A DNA stretch of 64,000 nucleotides from an uncultured Alphaproteobacteria bacterium (GTDB lineage Bacteria > Pseudomonadota > Alphaproteobacteria > HIMB59 > GCA-002718135). Numbering within the stretch: position 1 is the stretch's first letter; each line of letters opens with the position of its first letter. The translations under genes and the position numbers were made by a program. Below, piece after piece: positions 13,811-61,834 of this stretch. The notes beneath the pieces were generated by a model that made no database searches, had not been told where the DNA came from, and saw only the letters and a program-made list of their open reading frames with translations. Where the stretch lies: the NCBI GenBank assembly GCA_902525035.1, contig CABZFN010000004.1, forward strand, positions 1-64,000. The letters run 5' to 3'.

Positions 13811-13885
13811 GCTGATATAGTATAATGGTTATTACAGGCCGTTGGTAACGGTCAGATTCAAGTTCGATTCTCGGTATCAGCACCA
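13811..13885 (+). tRNA. tRNA-Thr (anticodon GGT), 3' CCA encoded
   Basis: The acceptor arms GCTGATA (13811-13817) and TATCAGC (13875-13881) pair perfectly and are followed by A and an encoded CCA. The anticodon stem GGCCG/CGGTC closes the loop TTGGTAA, giving anticodon GGT for threonine ACC/ACU codons. The D-arm is short (GTA...TAC around an AATGGTTA-type loop). The T-arm has the GTTCGATTC core with one A-C mismatch in its stem. The fold was done by eye. A protein gene starts 7 nt after the CCA. Confidence 0.9.
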
Positions 13886-27004: not shown

Positions 27005-28015
27005 ATGCCAGAAACTAAAAAAATTCAAACAGGGATAAACAATATATCAAACGAATGGTTTAGAGCCAATATAGATAGAAAAACTCTAAAAAAACTTTCT
27101 AAAAGATCAGACTTTGAGGGTTGGAAACATATAATTGTTTATTCACTAACATTAGGAGCGCTAGGTTTATTATCGTTATATACATGGCATAGTTTATGGT
27201 TTTTACCTGTATACCTAGCTTATTGTACCATGTGGGGTGGAGCTGATGCTATTTGGCATGAGTGTGGTCATGGAACTGCTTTCAAAAATAGAAGACTAAA
27301 TAGATTCTTTTATAACATTGCTAGTTTTATGAATAACTTTGAACCTGTTAGATGGAAGTGGAGTCACTCTCTTCATCATAGCTATACTGCTTCAGTTGAT
27401 CCTCATGACTACGAAGTTGATGGTAGTATTTTTGCTAAACATACATTTTTAAGTTTTATTTTAAATTTTATTCCTGGGATTGGTTTTTTTACAATCCATA
27501 AATCTCTTTATGTCGAAATAATAAAACATGCATTAGGAATTCAAACTAACGTAATGAGAGATTGCATTCCAGAAGATAAAATCAAAGATTGTATAAATAG
27601 TTCTAGAATTTTTGTTATACTATGGATTACAATAATAGTTGCCTCAATTTACTTTTCTACCTTTCTGCCAATATTTTTATTTTTAATACCAAAGTTCTTC
27701 GGCATTAATGGTGTATGGGGTGTGACCCAACACATGGGGTTAAAAGAAAACGCTAAGGATCATAGACTATCAACAAGATCTGTTAGACTTAATCCAATTT
27801 TTAGTTTTATTTATTGGAAGATGGAATACCATATTGAGCACCACATGTTTCCTATGATACCTTCATATAATCTTCCAAAATTATATGAAGTTATAAAAGA
27901 TCAAATGCCAGAACCTCAAACCCTATACCATGCTTATAAAGAAATTATACCAGCAGTTATAAAAAAGTCTAAAAATCCTGAATATTTTATTCCTGTGCAA
28001 GTCCCAAATAATTAA
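27005..28015 (+). CDS. Membrane fatty acid desaturase-family protein (copy 1)
   Basis: A 336-residue integral membrane di-iron enzyme of the fatty-acid desaturase family. The three histidine boxes are HECGH (85-89), HSLHH (121-125) and HIEHH (276-280), with an extra His at TQHMG (about 243) as in the broad superfamily. It has four or more hydrophobic segments. The superfamily includes desaturases, hydroxylases and ketolases, so the exact reaction is open. A paralogue lies at 39843-40841. Both share the unusual DPHDYE segment after box 2, and both stand next to sugar-catabolic operons with Gfo oxidoreductases rather than lipid genes. Confidence 0.88.
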   Translation: MPETKKIQTGINNISNEWFRANIDRKTLKKLSKRSDFEGWKHIIVYSLTLGALGLLSLYTWHSLWFLPVYLAYCTMWGGADAIWHECGHGTAFKNRRLNRFFYNIASFMNNFEPVRWKWSHSLHHSYTASVDPHDYEVDGSIFAKHTFLSFILNFIPGIGFFTIHKSLYVEIIKHALGIQTNVMRDCIPEDKIKDCINSSRIFVILWITIIVASIYFSTFLPIFLFLIPKFFGINGVWGVTQHMGLKENAKDHRLSTRSVRLNPIFSFIYWKMEYHIEHHMFPMIPSYNLPKLYEVIKDQMPEPQTLYHAYKEIIPAVIKKSKNPEYFIPVQVPNN

Positions 28016-34197: not shown

Positions 34198-35418
34198 TTA
34201 CCCCTTAATACCACCAGCCGTTAATCCACCAGTTAAATATTTTTCAGCCCACAAAAACACAACAATAACTGGAACAGTTGCAATCACTGACCCTGCCATT
34301 AAATGTTGTCTTGGTACCTCTGTTCCATCTAGTTGTTCTAATCCTCTAGGTAATGTGAATATTGAAGGAGTATCTAAAAACATATATGCAAATAAATATT
34401 CATTCCATGCTACCATAAAAATAAACAAAGAGACTGAAGCTAATGCAGGAAGTGATAAAGGTAGTGTAATTCTTAAAATTACTCCAGTTCTTGAAAGTCC
34501 ATCAACTAATCCAGCCTCTTCAAGTTCTTGAGGAATTGTTTGAAAGTATCCTTGCAACATATAGATCGCTACTGGAATAGTCACTGCAGGATAAACAATA
34601 ATCAAACCAAACAATGAATCTCTTAAATTTAAAAATGTAAAAAAGGAATAGAGAGGTATTAGTAATGTAATCATCGGTATTAAATAAATCAATAGTATTG
34701 AATTAATCATTAACAGTTTGCCTGGAAAATTGAATCTTGCCACTGCATAAGCCCCTGGTATTGCAAAAACCAGTGCAATAAAAATCGATGATAATGATAC
34801 AATCATAGAATTTAATAAATAAAACCCAAATCCCCAATCAGTAAAAAGCTCAATATAGCTTCTAAACATACTTACACCTCTTGAAATATCTACAGAAAGA
34901 TCAAGAGGATTTAATATAAGCAACTGATGAGTTTTTAAACTCATTAAAACCATTACATAAAAAGGAAATAATACTATTGTTAAAAAAAATGTAAAACCAA
35001 AGCCTTTTAAAACTCTAATGAATATAATTTCTAAAAATAATCTATTAAAAGACATTTTATTTATACCAGAAAGACAAATATTATTTCCAATCAAAATTAT
35101 AAAAGATTGAATAAGCAAGAATAAAATTTGTAAAAAAGAGTTTTGATCTATAGCTAATCCATATGGAGATATTCCAGTGAAGACTAGTATTAAAATGAAC
35201 GTTAATAAAAATATACTAACATTAGTTTGTAGATTTTTTTTGTTATAAAATGTAATTATTAGTGAAGTAATAGACGAAACAATTATAAACGATAAATAAT
35301 TAAATTGGATTGTAGTTCCAATTAAAAGAATAATAAAAATACCTAATATAAGGTTACTGATTAAGCCCCAAAAAGAACCAATTATAAATGATATTATAAT
35401 TTTTTGAATATTACTCAT
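34198..35418 (-). CDS. CUT1 sugar permease, MalG type, with extra N-terminal membrane domain
   Basis: A 406-residue permease whose last 270 residues form an ordinary MalG-type subunit, with the EAA loop LEEAGLVDGLSRTGVILRIT and the end KYLTGGLTAGGIKG. Residues 1 to about 135 are an additional hydrophobic domain with around four membrane spans before the canonical first span (GFTFFLTIVLFPFYVMVLMS, from about 141). MalG proteins are usually 275-300 residues. I do not recognise the extension. There is no stop or frame change between the parts, so it is a fusion as sequenced. It pairs with the MalF-type gene 2 nt upstream. Confidence 0.9.
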   Translation of the reverse strand: MSNIQKIIISFIIGSFWGLISNLILGIFIILLIGTTIQFNYLSFIIVSSITSLIITFYNKKNLQTNVSIFLLTFILILVFTGISPYGLAIDQNSFLQILFLLIQSFIILIGNNICLSGINKMSFNRLFLEIIFIRVLKGFGFTFFLTIVLFPFYVMVLMSLKTHQLLILNPLDLSVDISRGVSMFRSYIELFTDWGFGFYLLNSMIVSLSSIFIALVFAIPGAYAVARFNFPGKLLMINSILLIYLIPMITLLIPLYSFFTFLNLRDSLFGLIIVYPAVTIPVAIYMLQGYFQTIPQELEEAGLVDGLSRTGVILRITLPLSLPALASVSLFIFMVAWNEYLFAYMFLDTPSIFTLPRGLEQLDGTEVPRQHLMAGSVIATVPVIVVFLWAEKYLTGGLTAGGIKG

Positions 35419-35420
35419 GT

Positions 35421-36695
35421 TTATTCTTTAGGTGAAAATCTTATTATAAAAATAGCAGCAAAAACTAAAATTAAGAAAACTAAAACTGCATTTGCAGCAC
35501 CAGTACCTAAGTTTCCAATATTAAAACCAGTTTCATAAACATCAACTGTTAGAGTTTTTGTACCAGCAGCACCACCAGTCAATAAAAAAATATCATCAAA
35601 TTTGTTAAACGTCCAAATAAATCTAAGAAGAAATAAAACAAACAAAACACCTAAAATTAATGGCCAAGTAATACTTCTAAATTTTTGAAATGGAGTGGCG
35701 CCATCAATTTCAGCAGCTTCGAAAAGTTCTTTCGGTACTGATTGCAACCTTGCTAAAATAAAAATCATAGCTAAAGGAAAGTATCTCCATGATTCAAATA
35801 AGATAACAAAACACAATGCTACAGGTAAAGTAAAATCTAAACCTACAAAACTAAATGTCATTTCTCTTACTTGTAAGAAACTTATTGGCTCATTCAATAT
35901 TTCCAGCTCTGTTAATATTCCATTTATGGTTCCAAAAAAAGGGTCTGTTAATATTTTCCAAGTAATAGTAACCGCTATTATTGGAGCAATATAAGGGAAT
36001 AAAAAAACACCTCTTATAATTCCTCTTCCAATAAATGTAGTCATTAGAAGTTGAGCTGCTAATATTCCAAGTGTTAAAGAACCAATTGCTGAAAATAATG
36101 AATAGGCAAAACTAATTCTTATAGTTTTCCAAAAATTTGGAGAAGTGAAAATTTCTTCAAAATTTTTAATTTTTAAATCTAAATTTAGTAATCTATTTTC
36201 AGATTTACCTTCAACAATAGGAGAGGAATCTTTTGGATTTTCATTATTTAAAAAATATTTATCTTCTGCAATTGTTTCAAATTTTAATTTCTTTTTTTCT
36301 TTTGGTTGAAAATTTCCTAATTCACAACCAATAATATTTTCTGATAAGTTACAATTAGAAGGTAAATCTTTTATTATTAAACCAATTGGTATTTTATCTT
36401 TAAAAGAAACTTCTTTTATATTTGAGCTTTTTGAAAAATTATTAAATCTATACTCTATTTTTGAAATGTCCCCTTTTTCCTTTGGTTTTTTTTGGAATTT
36501 TTCACTTACTTTTATTTCAGCTGTTCTTAAATCAGATACTGTTACGTCTTTAAAACTTATCCAAAAATTAGCTAGAAGAGGAAATAAGACAATCGCCATA
36601 ACGATTGCGACAGTTGGAACAAGCATTGTATAAGCTTGAACAACTCCTTGTTTTTCAATGGGCCCCATTCTTTTTTTAAAAATCTTGGAGCCCAT
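35421..36695 (-). CDS. CUT1 sugar permease, MalF type, with large periplasmic insertion
   Basis: A 424-residue permease. The transmembrane core and EAA loop (FEAAEIDGATPFQKFRSITW) are normal. Between the first span (about 22-46) and the next (about 190 on) is an insertion of about 130 residues on the periplasmic side. E. coli MalF has an analogous P2 loop. Here the insert contains two Cys (115 and 124) inside a stretch (LPSNCNLSENIIGCELGNF) that resembles DUF11-type Ig-like repeats and may form a disulfide. It probably contacts the binding protein encoded 13 nt upstream. Confidence 0.9.
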   Translation of the reverse strand: MGSKIFKKRMGPIEKQGVVQAYTMLVPTVAIVMAIVLFPLLANFWISFKDVTVSDLRTAEIKVSEKFQKKPKEKGDISKIEYRFNNFSKSSNIKEVSFKDKIPIGLIIKDLPSNCNLSENIIGCELGNFQPKEKKKLKFETIAEDKYFLNNENPKDSSPIVEGKSENRLLNLDLKIKNFEEIFTSPNFWKTIRISFAYSLFSAIGSLTLGILAAQLLMTTFIGRGIIRGVFLFPYIAPIIAVTITWKILTDPFFGTINGILTELEILNEPISFLQVREMTFSFVGLDFTLPVALCFVILFESWRYFPLAMIFILARLQSVPKELFEAAEIDGATPFQKFRSITWPLILGVLFVLFLLRFIWTFNKFDDIFLLTGGAAGTKTLTVDVYETGFNIGNLGTGAANAVLVFLILVFAAIFIIRFSPKE

Positions 36696-38121: not shown

Positions 38122-38955
38122 TTATTTTTGAGAACTCAGTAATTTCGCCCTTTTTTTAAATTTTTGAAGCTCTGTATTATTTATTTTTACTGTATTCTTT
38201 AATGATGCAAATTTCCTAGTTTTGGCTCTTTTATAAAATTTATTCACTGCTTTAACTTTTTCATTATAAATTTTTTCTCTCAATTTATAAACTTTTGCAA
38301 AACTAAATGCATGTCTTGGTATTTCTTTATTTTCGCCACAAATATCATCCATAAATAAATAATTAACATCTCCAAAGTTTCCTGATCCTAAAGAAACTGT
38401 AATTAAATTTACGTTTTCTGAAATAAATTTTAGTGTTTGGTCAGCTATTACCTCCGCTTCAACTGCAAATGCTCCTGCATTTTCCATAGTTTTAAATTCT
38501 TGATATAATTTAAGTGCCTCTGATGCTGTTTTTCCTACACCTCTTAATCCACCTATCCAAATTGATTTTCTTGGAACTAATCCCAAGTGAGCCATTACAG
38601 GAATTGATTCTCTTGATAAAAACTCTACTACATAAGGAGATCTGGCAGTGTATATAGCATCAGCGCCCTTGTTAAGAGCTTCTAAAGAAGCCTTTAAAAT
38701 TTCATCTTTAGTCTTAAACTCTGTAAAAGGGATAGCAACAGTAATAAAATTATTTTTTGCAATTGATCTTACATTTTTAATAGAATTAAGACCTGTAATT
38801 AATAATTCAACTTTTGCATCAAGAGCAATATTAGTCTCATCTTCATTTTTTACATTTATTTGAGAAAGTTTTTTTTTACCCTTAACATCAAAAAGGTCTT
38901 TGATGGTATAATTTCTATAACTAAGAGAGCCAGAGAAATTATAAATTTTTTTCAT
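38122..38955 (-). CDS. PanB-like (ketopantoate hydroxymethyltransferase superfamily) protein
   Basis: A 277-residue protein whose central part follows PanB: IPVMAHLGLVPRKSIWIGGLRGVGKT, then ALKLYQEFKTMENAGAFAVEAEVI and a DDICG segment. The N-terminal block with the usual metal-binding Asp residues and the TAYD motif is not recognisable, and the C-terminus is a Lys-rich tail. It is therefore unlikely to be the housekeeping pantothenate enzyme. A phosphoenolpyruvate/isocitrate-lyase-fold C-C lyase acting on a 2-oxoacid is plausible. It lies 2 nt after the PhyH-like gene and upstream of the sugar importer. Confidence 0.7.
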   Translation of the reverse strand: MKKIYNFSGSLSYRNYTIKDLFDVKGKKKLSQINVKNEDETNIALDAKVELLITGLNSIKNVRSIAKNNFITVAIPFTEFKTKDEILKASLEALNKGADAIYTARSPYVVEFLSRESIPVMAHLGLVPRKSIWIGGLRGVGKTASEALKLYQEFKTMENAGAFAVEAEVIADQTLKFISENVNLITVSLGSGNFGDVNYLFMDDICGENKEIPRHAFSFAKVYKLREKIYNEKVKAVNKFYKRAKTRKFASLKNTVKINNTELQKFKKRAKLLSSQK

Positions 38956-38957
38956 AT

Positions 38958-39680
38958 TTATATCAAATACGCTCTTCCTCTTTGAATGCCGTTAAATGGA
39001 TCAATAATATTTTCAGAAGAGTATTGAGATAAATATGCTTTACGATTTTTTTTGGTAATATTGGCACCAGATGAATGCGGGGTTAAACTTGAAAAGATTA
39101 TTATTGTTCCAGCACCAACGCAAAGCTGAATTGCTTTTTTTTCATTCACGTTAATGCCTAAATCTTTTGATTTACTTTGCCATTTATGTGATTTTGCATT
39201 TTTAGTTTTTTTTAAATTAGTAGGAATAATACTCAAAGATCCATTTTTTTCATTTGTATCAGTTAAGGCAAGCCAAACTGATATATAGGGCTTATGCTTG
39301 AAATGAATATAACCTGAATCTTGATGCCAACTAAAAGAACTTGGAGTATTTGGATTTTTATTTACTAGTTGTTCATTAAATAAAAAAATTTTTTTGCCTA
39401 AGAGCTTTGAAACTATATTTTTCATAAATTTCCCCTTTGCATAAGAATTTATATGAGGATAATATTCACACTGGTTACCAAAAAATATTTTTCCATTTTT
39501 ACTAATATCACCATGCTTTTTTCTTTCATTATTATTTGACTGTTTTCTATTAATGCCTTTTTTGAAATCACTTATCATTTGATCAGCATTCTTATTAAGC
39601 TTAGATAATGTAGATTTTGAAACAATATTAGGAAGTACTACATATCCATTTTCTTCAAAACTTTTTTTATTAATTTTCAT
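38958..39680 (-). CDS. Phytanoyl-CoA dioxygenase (PhyH) family protein
   Basis: A 240-residue Fe(II)/2-oxoglutarate-dependent oxygenase of the PhyH type. The iron-binding HxD is in FSWHQDSGYIHF. The distal His in LTPHSSGANITKKNRKAYLSQY is followed by the Arg that usually holds 2-oxoglutarate. The N-terminal FEENGYVVLPNIV is the typical family start. Such enzymes hydroxylate small substrates, including sugars, lipids and phosphonates. It is the first gene of the operon that continues into the PanB-like gene and a CUT1 importer, so hydroxylation of the imported compound is a reasonable guess. Confidence 0.87.
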   Translation of the reverse strand: MKINKKSFEENGYVVLPNIVSKSTLSKLNKNADQMISDFKKGINRKQSNNNERKKHGDISKNGKIFFGNQCEYYPHINSYAKGKFMKNIVSKLLGKKIFLFNEQLVNKNPNTPSSFSWHQDSGYIHFKHKPYISVWLALTDTNEKNGSLSIIPTNLKKTKNAKSHKWQSKSKDLGINVNEKKAIQLCVGAGTIIIFSSLTPHSSGANITKKNRKAYLSQYSSENIIDPFNGIQRGRAYLI

Positions 39681-39842: not shown

Positions 39843-40841
39843 ATGAGTGAAAAATTGGATAATGTAGACACTAAGTGGTATAGAGCTGAAATAAACAAAA
39901 AAGACCTAAAACTTTTATCTAAAAAAAGTGACCTTAAGGGTTTGCAACACGTTGTCTTATATTTTCTATTACTATTTTTCTTTGGTTATATGTCTGTAAC
40001 AACTTGGGGAACATGGTGGGCAGCTCTATGGTTATGGTTGTATGGCGTTTTATTTTATGCAAGTAACCCTATCTGGCACGAATGTGGCCATAGAACAGCT
40101 TTCAAATCAAAATATTTAAATGAAATTTTTTATCAAATTGGTTCTTTCATGACTGACTTTGAACCTACAAGGTGGACATGGAGTCATTTTAGGCATCATA
40201 GCAACACTGCTTCTGTAGCAGACCCTCATGATTACGAAGCTGCATTATTCCATCAATATCCAACCTTACAAAGTTTTCTTTTTAGCTTTGTGCCATTTGC
40301 TGAGTTAATAAAATTTAAAAATTCATGGAAATTTGAAACTATTAAACATGCACTAGGGATTACAACCCCTGTTATGAGAGATTGCATACCTCAAAATGAA
40401 ATTTTGAAATGTAGACTTATATCAAGGATTCATGTTGCAATATGGGTCTCCTCTTTTGTAATATCTTTTTATTTAATGAACCCACTTCCAGCTCTATTAA
40501 TTTTCTTTCCTAGATACTGGGGAAATATTATTGAACTTTTTAATCAAACTCAACATATCGGTCTACCAGAAGATATAAAAGATCACAGATACACTACTAG
40601 ATCAGTACGCTTTAATCCAATCTTTAGTTTTTTATATTGGCATATGGAATATCATGTTGAACATCATATGTTTCCCTCAGTACCATCATATAACTTAAGA
40701 AAATTAAGTAACTTAATTAAAGATCAGTTACCTAAAGCTAATTCAAGTCTATTTGATGCTTACAAAGAAATAATTCCTGCGATAATTAAACAACATAGAG
40801 ATAATAGTTATTTTATTCAAAAAGAAGTACCAAATACATAA
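39843..40841 (+). CDS. Membrane fatty acid desaturase-family protein (copy 2)
   Basis: A 332-residue paralogue of the desaturase-family gene at 27005-28015, alike along its whole length. The histidine boxes are HECGH (79-83), HFRHH and HVEHH, with the shared DPHDYE segment and the conserved ending SYFIQKEVPNT (YFIPVQVPNN in copy 1). The spans and the di-iron site are intact. It precedes a Gfo/PHP/sulfatase cluster, 52 nt before the Gfo gene. The 162-nt upstream spacer shared with the divergent PhyH gene is AT-rich with no clear operator. Confidence 0.88.
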   Translation: MSEKLDNVDTKWYRAEINKKDLKLLSKKSDLKGLQHVVLYFLLLFFFGYMSVTTWGTWWAALWLWLYGVLFYASNPIWHECGHRTAFKSKYLNEIFYQIGSFMTDFEPTRWTWSHFRHHSNTASVADPHDYEAALFHQYPTLQSFLFSFVPFAELIKFKNSWKFETIKHALGITTPVMRDCIPQNEILKCRLISRIHVAIWVSSFVISFYLMNPLPALLIFFPRYWGNIIELFNQTQHIGLPEDIKDHRYTTRSVRFNPIFSFLYWHMEYHVEHHMFPSVPSYNLRKLSNLIKDQLPKANSSLFDAYKEIIPAIIKQHRDNSYFIQKEVPNT

Positions 40842-48068: not shown

Positions 48069-48161
48069 TTTTTATATAGATTTAGAATTTAATTTATTTT
48101 AAGATATATATTAAGATTATAGTGATCTTAGCACTTGAAAAATCGCTCAAAGGAGGATGAA

Positions 48162-49241
48162 GTGGCAGATATAAATGTTAATACAGTAAATAAATATTTT
48201 GGAGATGTTCACGTTATTAAAGATATCTCTCTAGATATTAAAAGCCAATCATTTACAGTTTTAGTTGGACCTAGTGGTTGTGGAAAATCAACTATGCTTA
48301 GAATGATAGCGGGGTTAGAAGATATTAATTCGGGTACAATTTCAATTGATGGCCAAGTCGTAAATGATTTACCACCAAAACAAAGAAATATTGCAATGGT
48401 GTTTCAGTCTTATGCATTATACCCGCATATGACTGTGTTTGATAATATGGCATTTGGATTGAAATTAGAAAAAAGATCTAAAGATGAAATTAATGAAAGA
48501 GTTAATGAGGCAGCAAGAATTCTTCAAATTGAAGACTACTTACTTAGGAAGCCAAAACAATTATCTGGAGGTCAAAGACAACGTGTTGCAATTGGCCGAG
48601 CTATTACTAGAAAACCAAAAGTTTTCTTATTCGATGAACCACTTTCAAACCTTGATGCAGCATTAAGGGTACAAATGAGAGTCGAGTTAGCTAAGCTCCA
48701 TAACGAGTTAGATGCTACAATGATATATGTAACTCACGACCAAACAGAAGCAATGACTCTTGCAGATGATATTGTTGTTCTTGATACAGGTATTGTTTCT
48801 CAAAAAGGTTCTCCTTTAGAACTATATGATAAGCCAAATAATATGTTTGTTGGTGGATTTATTGGATCGCCAAAAATGAACTTTATGCCTTCAAAAATAT
48901 TAAGCAAAAGTGCTGACTCTACTGAAGTTGATCTTATGGGAATGTCAAAAATATCAGTTCCTAAATTGTCAGCGTCATCTTCTGAGGGTGATGCAGTAAC
49001 CTTAGGCATAAGACCTGAACACTTAGTAGTTAATGGTGATGCAGATGGTTCTTGGGAAAGTAAAGTGTTCGTTGTCGAAAAACTAGGTGACGTTACGTAT
49101 CTATACCTTGAAAAAGATGGAGAGCCATTAGTTGCTGAAACTGAAGGACATTCAGAAATTAAAGTTGGTGATAGTGTAAAAGTTGGTTTCCCTGCTGGAA
49201 GATGCCAATTATTTGACAGTTCAAATCAGGCTTTTAAATAA
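48162..49241 (+). CDS. ugpC: Sugar ABC transporter ATPase, MalK/UgpC type
   Basis: A 359-residue ATPase. It has Walker A GPSGCGKST (36-44), Q-loop VFQSYALYPHMTV, signature LSGGQRQRVAIGRA, Walker B VFLFDEPLSNLD and switch His THDQTEAM. A C-terminal regulatory TOBE domain (about 235-359, LGIRPEHLVV) is present. The GTG at 48162 after AAAGGAGG is chosen over an upstream TTG at 48135, because it gives the usual MADINVNTVNKYFG start. It is the only CUT1-type ATPase in the window, against four CUT1 permease sets, so it may serve several of them. Confidence 0.93.
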   Translation: MADINVNTVNKYFGDVHVIKDISLDIKSQSFTVLVGPSGCGKSTMLRMIAGLEDINSGTISIDGQVVNDLPPKQRNIAMVFQSYALYPHMTVFDNMAFGLKLEKRSKDEINERVNEAARILQIEDYLLRKPKQLSGGQRQRVAIGRAITRKPKVFLFDEPLSNLDAALRVQMRVELAKLHNELDATMIYVTHDQTEAMTLADDIVVLDTGIVSQKGSPLELYDKPNNMFVGGFIGSPKMNFMPSKILSKSADSTEVDLMGMSKISVPKLSASSSEGDAVTLGIRPEHLVVNGDADGSWESKVFVVEKLGDVTYLYLEKDGEPLVAETEGHSEIKVGDSVKVGFPAGRCQLFDSSNQAFK

Positions 49242-60153: not shown

Positions 60154-60993
60154 CTAGTTTTTTACAGCTCCAGAAGTCAAACCAGCAACAATATATTTCT
60201 GTAGAAAAAGAAAAATGATTAATACAGGTGCTATCCCAACAAGAGAGGCTGCCATCATTTCATTCCATTTAACTGTCGTGTAACCAATAAATTCATAGAG
60301 TCCTGAGGGAATAGGCATGTACTCTTTTTTCTGATTAAAAGTTATTGCAAATAAAAACTGTTGTGCATATGATCCTATAAAAGCATATATCCCAACAACT
60401 ACTAAGCCAGGAGTACTAAGTGGTGCTATAATGTGTCTTAAAATTTGAACTCTTGAAGCTCCATCAACGAATGCAGCCTCTTCCAAATCAATTGGAATTT
60501 TTTCAAAGTATGATTTTAATAACCATATTGCGGTAGGTATTAAGAAGGCGACACCTGGTACTATCATTGCTTGGTATGTATTAAGAAGACCAAAAGTTCT
60601 TAAAACTTTATATAATGGAATTAAAAGTACAGCACCTGAAAACATATTTATTGCTAGTAATATATATAAAGATGAATTCTTAAAAGGAAATCTGAAACGA
60701 GCATAAGAATAAGCGGCAGGAATAACAAATAACAAAGTAATTAAAGATGTAACACTAGCAAGAAAAAAGCTATTAAAAATATATCGCGGCAACATTGGAA
60801 CAGTTTTCCACATTTCTCTATATGCCCAAAAAGATAAATCATCAGAATAAAACTGATATGGTGATCGAAATAAATGATCCAAAGGACGGAGAGATGCATA
60901 GAACATTTCTACAAACGGTAGAAGTATAAAAGTCATGAAAACTAGTATACCTAAATATAAGATTATCTTTTCGTATAAATTATATTTATCCAA
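60154..60993 (-). CDS. Carbohydrate ABC transporter permease, MalG type, tandem copy 2
   Basis: A 279-residue permease nearly identical over its length to the gene upstream (60995-61834). They share FYASLRPLDHLFRSPYQFYS and the EAA loop LEEAAFVDGASRVQILRHII, and end ...AGAVKN or SGAVKN. The open frame reaches 61032, but homology begins at a TTG codon (60993; LDKYNLYEKI aligned with MNKYNTFEKI). That TTG is one base after the copy 1 stop, with AGGAG 15 nt before, so it is the probable start. A recent tandem duplication is evident. Confidence 0.9.
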   Translation of the reverse strand: MDKYNLYEKIILYLGILVFMTFILLPFVEMFYASLRPLDHLFRSPYQFYSDDLSFWAYREMWKTVPMLPRYIFNSFFLASVTSLITLLFVIPAAYSYARFRFPFKNSSLYILLAINMFSGAVLLIPLYKVLRTFGLLNTYQAMIVPGVAFLIPTAIWLLKSYFEKIPIDLEEAAFVDGASRVQILRHIIAPLSTPGLVVVGIYAFIGSYAQQFLFAITFNQKKEYMPIPSGLYEFIGYTTVKWNEMMAASLVGIAPVLIIFLFLQKYIVAGLTSGAVKN

Positions 60994-60994
60994 T

Positions 60995-61834
60995 TTAGTT
61001 TTTAACTGCTCCTGCAGTAAGTCCTTCAACAATATATTTTTGTAAAAAAATAAAAACTAATAAAACAGGTGCTATCCCAACAAGAGAAGCTGCCATCATT
61101 TCATTCCATTTAACACTTTGATATCCTATAAATTCATATAATCCTGAAGGAATAGGCATATATTCTTTTTTTTGATTAAACGTTATTGCAAATAAGAACT
61201 GTTGTGCATAAGCGCCAATAAATGCATATATTCCAACTACAACCAATCCAGGAGTACTAAGTGGAGCTATTATATGACGTAGGATCTGTACTCTTGAAGC
61301 CCCATCTACAAAAGCAGCTTCTTCTAAATCAATTGGTATTTTTTCAAAGTATGATTTTAATAACCAAATAGATGTAGGAATTAAAAATGCTACTCCAGGT
61401 ACAATCATTGCTTGATAACTATTCAACAAACCAAAAGTTCTTAAAACTTTATATAAAGGAATTAAAAGAACTGCCCCTGAGAACATATTTATTGCAAGCA
61501 ATACATATAGACTTGTATTCTTTGCTGGAAATTTGAAACGAGCATAAGAATATGCTGCTGGGATTACAAAAATAAGTGTTATTACTGCAACTGAAGTTGC
61601 TAAAAAAAAACTATTAAATATATATCTTCCAAGCATTGGAACTGTATTCCACATTTCTCTATATGCCCAAAAAGATAAATCATCAGAATAAAACTGATAT
61701 GGAGATCGAAATAAATGATCTAATGGACGAAGGGATGCATAAAACATTTCTACAAAAGGCAAAAGTATAAAAGTCATAAAGACTAAAATGCCTGAATAGA
61801 TAAGTATTTTTTCAAAAGTATTATATTTATTCAT
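60995..61834 (-). CDS. Carbohydrate ABC transporter permease, MalG type, tandem copy 1
   Basis: A 279-residue inner-membrane permease with six spans and an intact EAA loop (LEEAAFVDGASRVQILRHII). Differences from copy 2 are mostly conservative and lie in the first two spans and the periplasmic/second-span region (ATSVAVITLIF versus ASVTSLITLLF). Its start overlaps the MalF-type gene by 8 nt and copy 2 follows 1 nt after its stop, so both copies are expressed together. Either copy could pair with the single MalF-type subunit. Confidence 0.93.
   Translation of the reverse strand: MNKYNTFEKILIYSGILVFMTFILLPFVEMFYASLRPLDHLFRSPYQFYSDDLSFWAYREMWNTVPMLGRYIFNSFFLATSVAVITLIFVIPAAYSYARFKFPAKNTSLYVLLAINMFSGAVLLIPLYKVLRTFGLLNSYQAMIVPGVAFLIPTSIWLLKSYFEKIPIDLEEAAFVDGASRVQILRHIIAPLSTPGLVVVGIYAFIGAYAQQFLFAITFNQKKEYMPIPSGLYEFIGYQSVKWNEMMAASLVGIAPVLLVFIFLQKYIVEGLTAGAVKN

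Follow-up and report, generated by a model that had tools for sequence, protein, structure and literature searches.

In the maltose importer of Escherichia coli, MalFGK2-MalE, the MalF subunit carries two extra N-terminal helices and a folded periplasmic domain, P2, which is Ig-like. MalF of enteric bacteria and Thermotogales is described as an eight-helix protein whose periplasmic domain comprises 180 residues, and the MalG of Thermotogales is said to contain an additional stretch of about 500 residues (PMC2246101). On the same account, both permease subunits of one pair carry extras in the Thermotogales Mal1 and Mal2 systems, so that a pair with two extras has a precedent; there, however, the MalG extra is hydrophilic and lies between helices one and two (PMC2246101), whereas the pair described here has four N-terminal membrane helices. 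P2 contacts MalE, according to PMC3150292 and to titles in reference lists. The closest solved MalG-type core is that of SugB (33% identity) from the mycobacterial trehalose importer LpqY-SugABC, but SugB has 271-273 residues in the structures, which do not cover an extension. Here we describe a permease pair in which MalF has a DUF11-like domain at the place of P2 and MalG has a membrane extension, and we show that these extras go together throughout a distinct family of importers.

Results

Architecture of the permease pair

The window, by which we mean the whole 64-kb stretch of DNA analysed, contains a locus in which two PF00528 cores adjoin a binding protein of the SBP_bac_1/8 type, the arrangement by which we assign it to CUT1 (Table 1). 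An EAA loop can be read in both permease sequences (EAAEIDGATPFQKF in MalF, EEAGLVDGLSRTGVI in MalG), and the MalF stretch aligns with E. coli MalF. As the earlier note had claimed, both extras are absent from the other three CUT1 systems of the window, where the permeases are of ordinary length (MalF of 292, 304 and 299 aa; MalG of 280, 287, and 292 plus 279 aa). No ATPase gene of the MalK class adjoins the MalF-MalG pair, although kin are encoded elsewhere in the window and the genome. The pair would therefore probably borrow a shared ATPase encoded elsewhere, for which Table 1 lists a candidate (50% identity to the family ATPase in a second comparison).

Table 1. Features of the importer locus within the 64-kb window
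Feature	Position	Strand	Evidence
MalG-type permease, 406 aa	34198..35418	-	ORF; PF00528 at residues 220-395, 58 bits (cut-off 26.4)
MalG N-terminal extension, about residues 1-125, four predicted membrane helices	35044..35418	-	AF2 helices; loop charges
MalF-type permease, 424 aa	35421..36695	-	ORF; PF00528 at residues 207-418, 49.4 bits (cut-off 26.4)
MalF insert with DUF11-like beta-sandwich, P2 position, about residues 50-175	36171..36548	-	alignment, Pfam, AF2, hhalign
MalF Cys115, probable disulfide partner	36351..36353	-	invariant, 53/53 rows
MalF Cys124, probable disulfide partner	36324..36326	-	invariant, 53/53 rows
Solute-binding protein (SBP), 446 aa	36709..38049	-	SBP_bac_8 E 4.9e-16; SBP_bac_1 E 1.8e-12
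PanB-like (ketopantoate hydroxymethyltransferase-like) gene, upstream of SBP	38122..38955	-	Pantoate_transf E 4.6e-28; 6/6 named window-clade loci
PhyH-type oxygenase gene, first in presumed operon	38958..39680	-	PhyH E 1.4e-27; 6/6 named window-clade loci
Candidate shared ATPase	48135..49241	+	closest match in genome to the family ATPase (51% identity, E 8.7e-103)

Elsewhere in the window, two tandem, slightly overlapping MalG-type genes on the minus strand (60154-61032 and 60995-61834; 90% identical over 279 residues) adjoin one MalF gene, and a second MalG-type frame likewise follows in the relatives L029, L030, L032-L035 and L037. At another ordinary CUT1 locus, L007 (G000:C3, 547-2376, minus strand), a 609-aa frame has a MalG-type core match and a 616-aa frame at the same place matches the MalF type, possibly a fused permease pair.

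MalG has about 125-135 extra N-terminal residues ahead of its first core span, close to the 135 or so residues with roughly four spans that had been noticed before. Four helices are predicted for them (residues 3-33, 41-57, 63-81 and 94-115; pLDDT 82-94 in ten-residue blocks) in an AF2 model of the whole of MalG, from which the fold of the extension is taken and which is weaker overall (mean pLDDT 76.5, pTM 0.57). The net charges of the five flanking segments alternate in the N-in sense (family means over 90 rows: +0.83, -0.41, +1.53, -0.36 and +1.32). The Pfam domain 5TM-5TMR_LYT was matched by 12 of 43 extension members (best 3e-4), with the window copy below the cut-off, and we take this match as hydrophobic similarity only.

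In MalF, about 126 residues separate TM1 (residues 26-44) from the core, and matches to the UgpA and MalF models begin at residue 176. This agrees with the periplasmic insert of about 130 residues and two Cys in the earlier description; both Cys residues, together with five further insert columns, are invariant in 53 aligned inserts. An AF2 model built on the 53-row insert alignment is a beta-sandwich (mean pLDDT 84.8) with strands running from 15-22 to 114-119, and its neighbours are Ig-like and related sandwiches. At E<=1, DUF11 was matched by 36 of the 53 insert relatives (best 2.7e-6) and DUF7933 by 38 (best 6.4e-8). The Pfam cut-off for DUF11 (24.6 bits) was passed by two of seven relatives scanned singly, with 25.7 and 25.4 bits, while the window copy gave no DUF11 match at E<=1 and lies below the cut-off; the DUF11/Ig-like resemblance proposed earlier is right for the family. 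When the insert profile was compared with a protein containing five DUF11 stretches (L157), the two aligned with Prob 90.6 and E 1.3e-6, both Cys in register. The insert and the DUF11 (PF01345) repeat proteins are alike in fold type, in the stretch 'D.(L/I)P.G' and in the Cys pair; they differ in that DUF11 recurs in long proteins, as it does five times in L157, whereas the insert is one copy inside a membrane permease. Judged by these profile matches and the predicted fold, the insert is a DUF11-like beta-sandwich at the level of the family. A literature search on DUF11 in permeases gave only papers that, judged by title and abstract, are unrelated.

The position of the insert corresponds to that of P2, a point that is absent from the earlier note. 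When the MalF family was aligned with E. coli MalF by hhalign, the window TM1 was paired with the span that precedes P2, and the insert with P2 itself. The first hydrophobic segment of the family, residues 26-44, thus aligns with the span preceding P2, and the two extra N-terminal helices of the eight-helix MalF layout are missing from the window MalF. The system has CUT1 cores in common with MalFGK2-MalE, and in both MalF carries a folded domain on the periplasmic side at the same site, but the two periplasmic domains have no detectable sequence kinship (hhalign Prob 0.3 in a comparison with one P2 sequence), so that homology of the insert to P2 is not proposed. P2 was also absent from the lists of structural neighbours of the insert, which does not speak for a different fold. 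Unlike E. coli MalG, the window MalG carries four extra helices.

Co-occurrence of the two extras

Profiles of the insert and of the extension were searched separately. Among 385 Alphaproteobacteria, ten genomes matched the insert profile and ten the extension profile, nine of them in common. The genome with an insert match only (G296) encodes a MalG of 398 aa with an extension that has diverged too far for the profile to recognize, so that both extras are present; the genome with an extension match only (G518, E 3.7e-6) has no CUT1 match at that place. All ten insert loci in this sample hence have the extension as well. In a partly overlapping sample of 398 Pseudomonadota, the insert profile matched 20 genomes at E<=0.001, 16 of them at full length (E<=6.7e-36) and four weakly only, and the extension profile matched exactly the same 16 genomes, in each case 1.1-1.3 kb from the insert. 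The weak matches that were read, in three of the four weak-only genomes (G654, G590 and G660, to the exclusion of G762 and of a second weak match in G164), turned out to lie in DUF11 domains that belong to other proteins. When the MalG core served as query, five of 240 genomes gave matches at 63-81% identity, all belonging to the importer family, and the next best match was at 41%, leaving no core intermediates in between.

Both the insert and the extension were recognized by automatic criteria in 106 of 113 loci, a count that leaves out ordinary CUT1 loci (L002-L008, L027-L037), the E. coli locus L118 and second copies (L001, L129-L159), and in which L009-L016 and L038-L043 in part represent the same genomes. 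Of the remaining seven, one (L120) does not encode a permease and six were settled by profile matches or assembly faults (L045, L048 with 475 N in the locus, L068 with a split frame, L071 at a contig end, L123 and L160). Neither extra has been lost in any complete family locus examined. The earlier note had suggested a survey of whether the two extensions always co-occur, its claim to fall if orthologues carried either one alone in a random fashion; no such pattern was found, and random occurrence of the two is rejected by the matching genomes from separate profile searches. Their joint presence in one heterodimer is strongly supported.

In a tree of 66 rows, the 44 inserted MalFs form a single clade, split off by a branch with support 100/99, in an analysis whose bootstrap was not fully settled and whose outgroup branches are long. 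The members of the family include Deinococcota and Gammaproteobacteria, which points to horizontal spread. The MalF/MalG pair with both extras appears, then, to define a distinct CUT1 family that has probably spread horizontally.

Gene context of the family

Of the 74 loci that lie outside the window clade, 69 have a gene for a GH63 relative of mannosyl-/glucosylglycerate hydrolases, a tie that the analysis adds to the earlier note. One family hydrolase matches the sequence of 2z07/4wva with E 5.8e-100; 4wva is the Thermus thermophilus mannosylglycerate hydrolase (PMC6608630). A plasmid-encoded homologue scores 326.6 bits with the NCBI glucosylglycerate hydrolase model, below its cut-off of 550. 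Of five plasmid regions, two encode a relative of glycerate 2-kinase and one a relative of D-mannose isomerase; among the 74 loci outside the window clade, the kinase was found in four and the isomerase in four. Four of the five plasmid records label the gene that separates MalG from the ATPase simply as 'hypothetical protein', and the one such protein that was scanned is a glucosylglycerate-hydrolase relative. None of three solved SBP relatives at E<=1e-8 is named for mannosylglycerate or glucosylglycerate, and no transporter of these compounds was found in the literature by that wording. The GH63 neighbour and the kinase/isomerase context point to a family of importers for protective sugar-glycerates, without favouring mannosyl or glucosyl; the family at large probably imports sugar-glycerates and uses a P2-like domain for docking.

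On a plasmid of Paroceanicella profunda (L163, 1598-3298 and 3529-9575), the hydrolase place of the family operon holds no gene and a divergent GH13 gene of the sucrose-phosphorylase-like type lies alongside; phosphorolysis possibly replaces hydrolysis there.

Discussion

We consider it moderately probable that the pair belongs to a CUT1 family in which the DUF11-like sandwich at the place of P2 has a docking role, the four-helix MalG extra acts as a belt, and the substrate is a sugar glycerate. By analogy with P2 in the maltose system, the MalF sandwich would most likely contact the SBP in the periplasm, and this contact would most likely hold the SBP on the transporter or signal its loaded state. 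The four MalG helices would most likely form a belt around the MalG core, with a stabilising or regulatory function. The most probable substrate of the family would be mannosylglycerate or glucosylglycerate, which the GH63 hydrolase encoded nearby would cleave after uptake. Several observations weigh against this explanation: the absence of sequence kinship between the insert and the single P2 sequence compared, the score of the plasmid hydrolase below the glucosylglycerate-hydrolase cut-off, the variability of the insert relative to the SBP, the lack of a specific link between insert and SBP distances, and the missing hydrolase in the lineage of the window; the last three are taken up below.

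Among 91 genomes of the genus, nine carry the window type of the importer (89-100% identity) and ten a second type (47-48%). The SBP gene of the window type follows PhyH and PanB-like genes in all six named loci; the second type sits elsewhere, without these genes (three loci read). No GH63 hydrolase was found in the six window-clade loci or in 19 genus genomes that bear the pair and are mostly incomplete, whereas three control genomes were matched; nor was a glycerate kinase found in the eight that were tested of these 19 mostly incomplete genomes, with one control matched. It is accordingly a serious possibility, if not the one we would choose, that the window copy has been retargeted to another substrate, handled by the upstream-encoded PhyH and PanB-like enzymes. 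Yet the incompleteness of most of the genus genomes tempers these absences, an unrelated hydrolase or phosphorylase could substitute for GH63, as the Paroceanicella plasmid suggests, and the window SBP is about 38-45% identical to hydrolase-linked members. Under the sugar-glycerate explanation that we prefer, the lineage of the window kept the importer and may take up the same glycoside or one related to it.

In other genomes of the genus, the second-type SBP-MalF-MalG set (L129, L130 and L131; MalF about 46% identical) is flanked by homologues of window genes 12115 and 13892, and the window carries tRNA-Thr 13811-13885 at that site, which may be an island site. The window also encodes, at 27005-28015 and 39843-40841 on the plus strand, two paralogous proteins that by eye resemble membrane desaturases; a relative in L132 is 87% identical to the 39843-40841 protein and 50% to the other.

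It is also conceivable, though we think it unlikely, that the extras, a membrane bundle and a stable beta-sandwich, are passive passengers, acquired once by the ancestral operon and inherited ever since without a docking or regulatory role. Both vary fast, as would be expected of passengers: mean pairwise identity is 0.40 for the insert and 0.26 for the extension, the fastest-varying region among those measured, against 0.72 and 0.76 for the two cores and 0.65 for the SBP. The partial correlation of insert and extension distances is 0.38 given both cores, with none of 2000 permutations as high, and 0.60 given slow core columns (50 loci). Correlations of either extra with fast core columns are, however, equal or higher (0.62-0.68; 50 loci), and co-evolution specific to the two extras is therefore not claimed; the lack of a signal above fast core columns likewise suits passengers. 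Distances of the insert and the SBP correlate at 0.37, compared with 0.54-0.64 for fast-column controls, and thus show no specific link between the two in these 50 loci. The co-evolved module proposed in the earlier note is not specifically supported; the data are in keeping with two domains that were passed on jointly within a single family of operons. On the other hand, passengers would hardly be expected to persist in every complete family locus, as both extras do, with the exceptions to the automatic count explained, or to keep two Cys and five further insert columns invariant.

A bolder variant of the docking explanation seems doubtful to us, namely that a DUF11 domain of the type found in long repeat proteins, placed in a permease, independently took over the role of P2 in docking and in sensing the loaded SBP, and works with the new four-helix MalG belt, the pair having been kept in streamlined marine genomes and retargeted to a different, osmolyte-like substrate handled by the PhyH and PanB-like enzymes. 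Least probable by far is that the insert binds sugar, as a carbohydrate-binding module by which substrate is concentrated or selected at the mouth of the transporter: Foldseek and VIA-align did place cellulose- and chitin-binding domains (3ndy, 6qfs, 2cwr) beside Ig-like sandwiches among the neighbours of the insert at Z of about 10, but integrin, alpha-2-macroglobulin, AP2 mu2 and TRAP domains score similarly, so that the mixture indicates a common fold and no function, and the sequence kinship of the insert points to DUF11.

The insert represents a second periplasmic domain at the place of P2, and one without detected sequence kinship to it, which makes the role of periplasmic insertions in SBP docking testable by comparison, beyond the maltose system. 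In addition, the combination of insert and extension, usually with a GH63 neighbour, provides a sequence marker for candidate mannosyl- or glucosylglycerate importers, mostly in marine bacteria.
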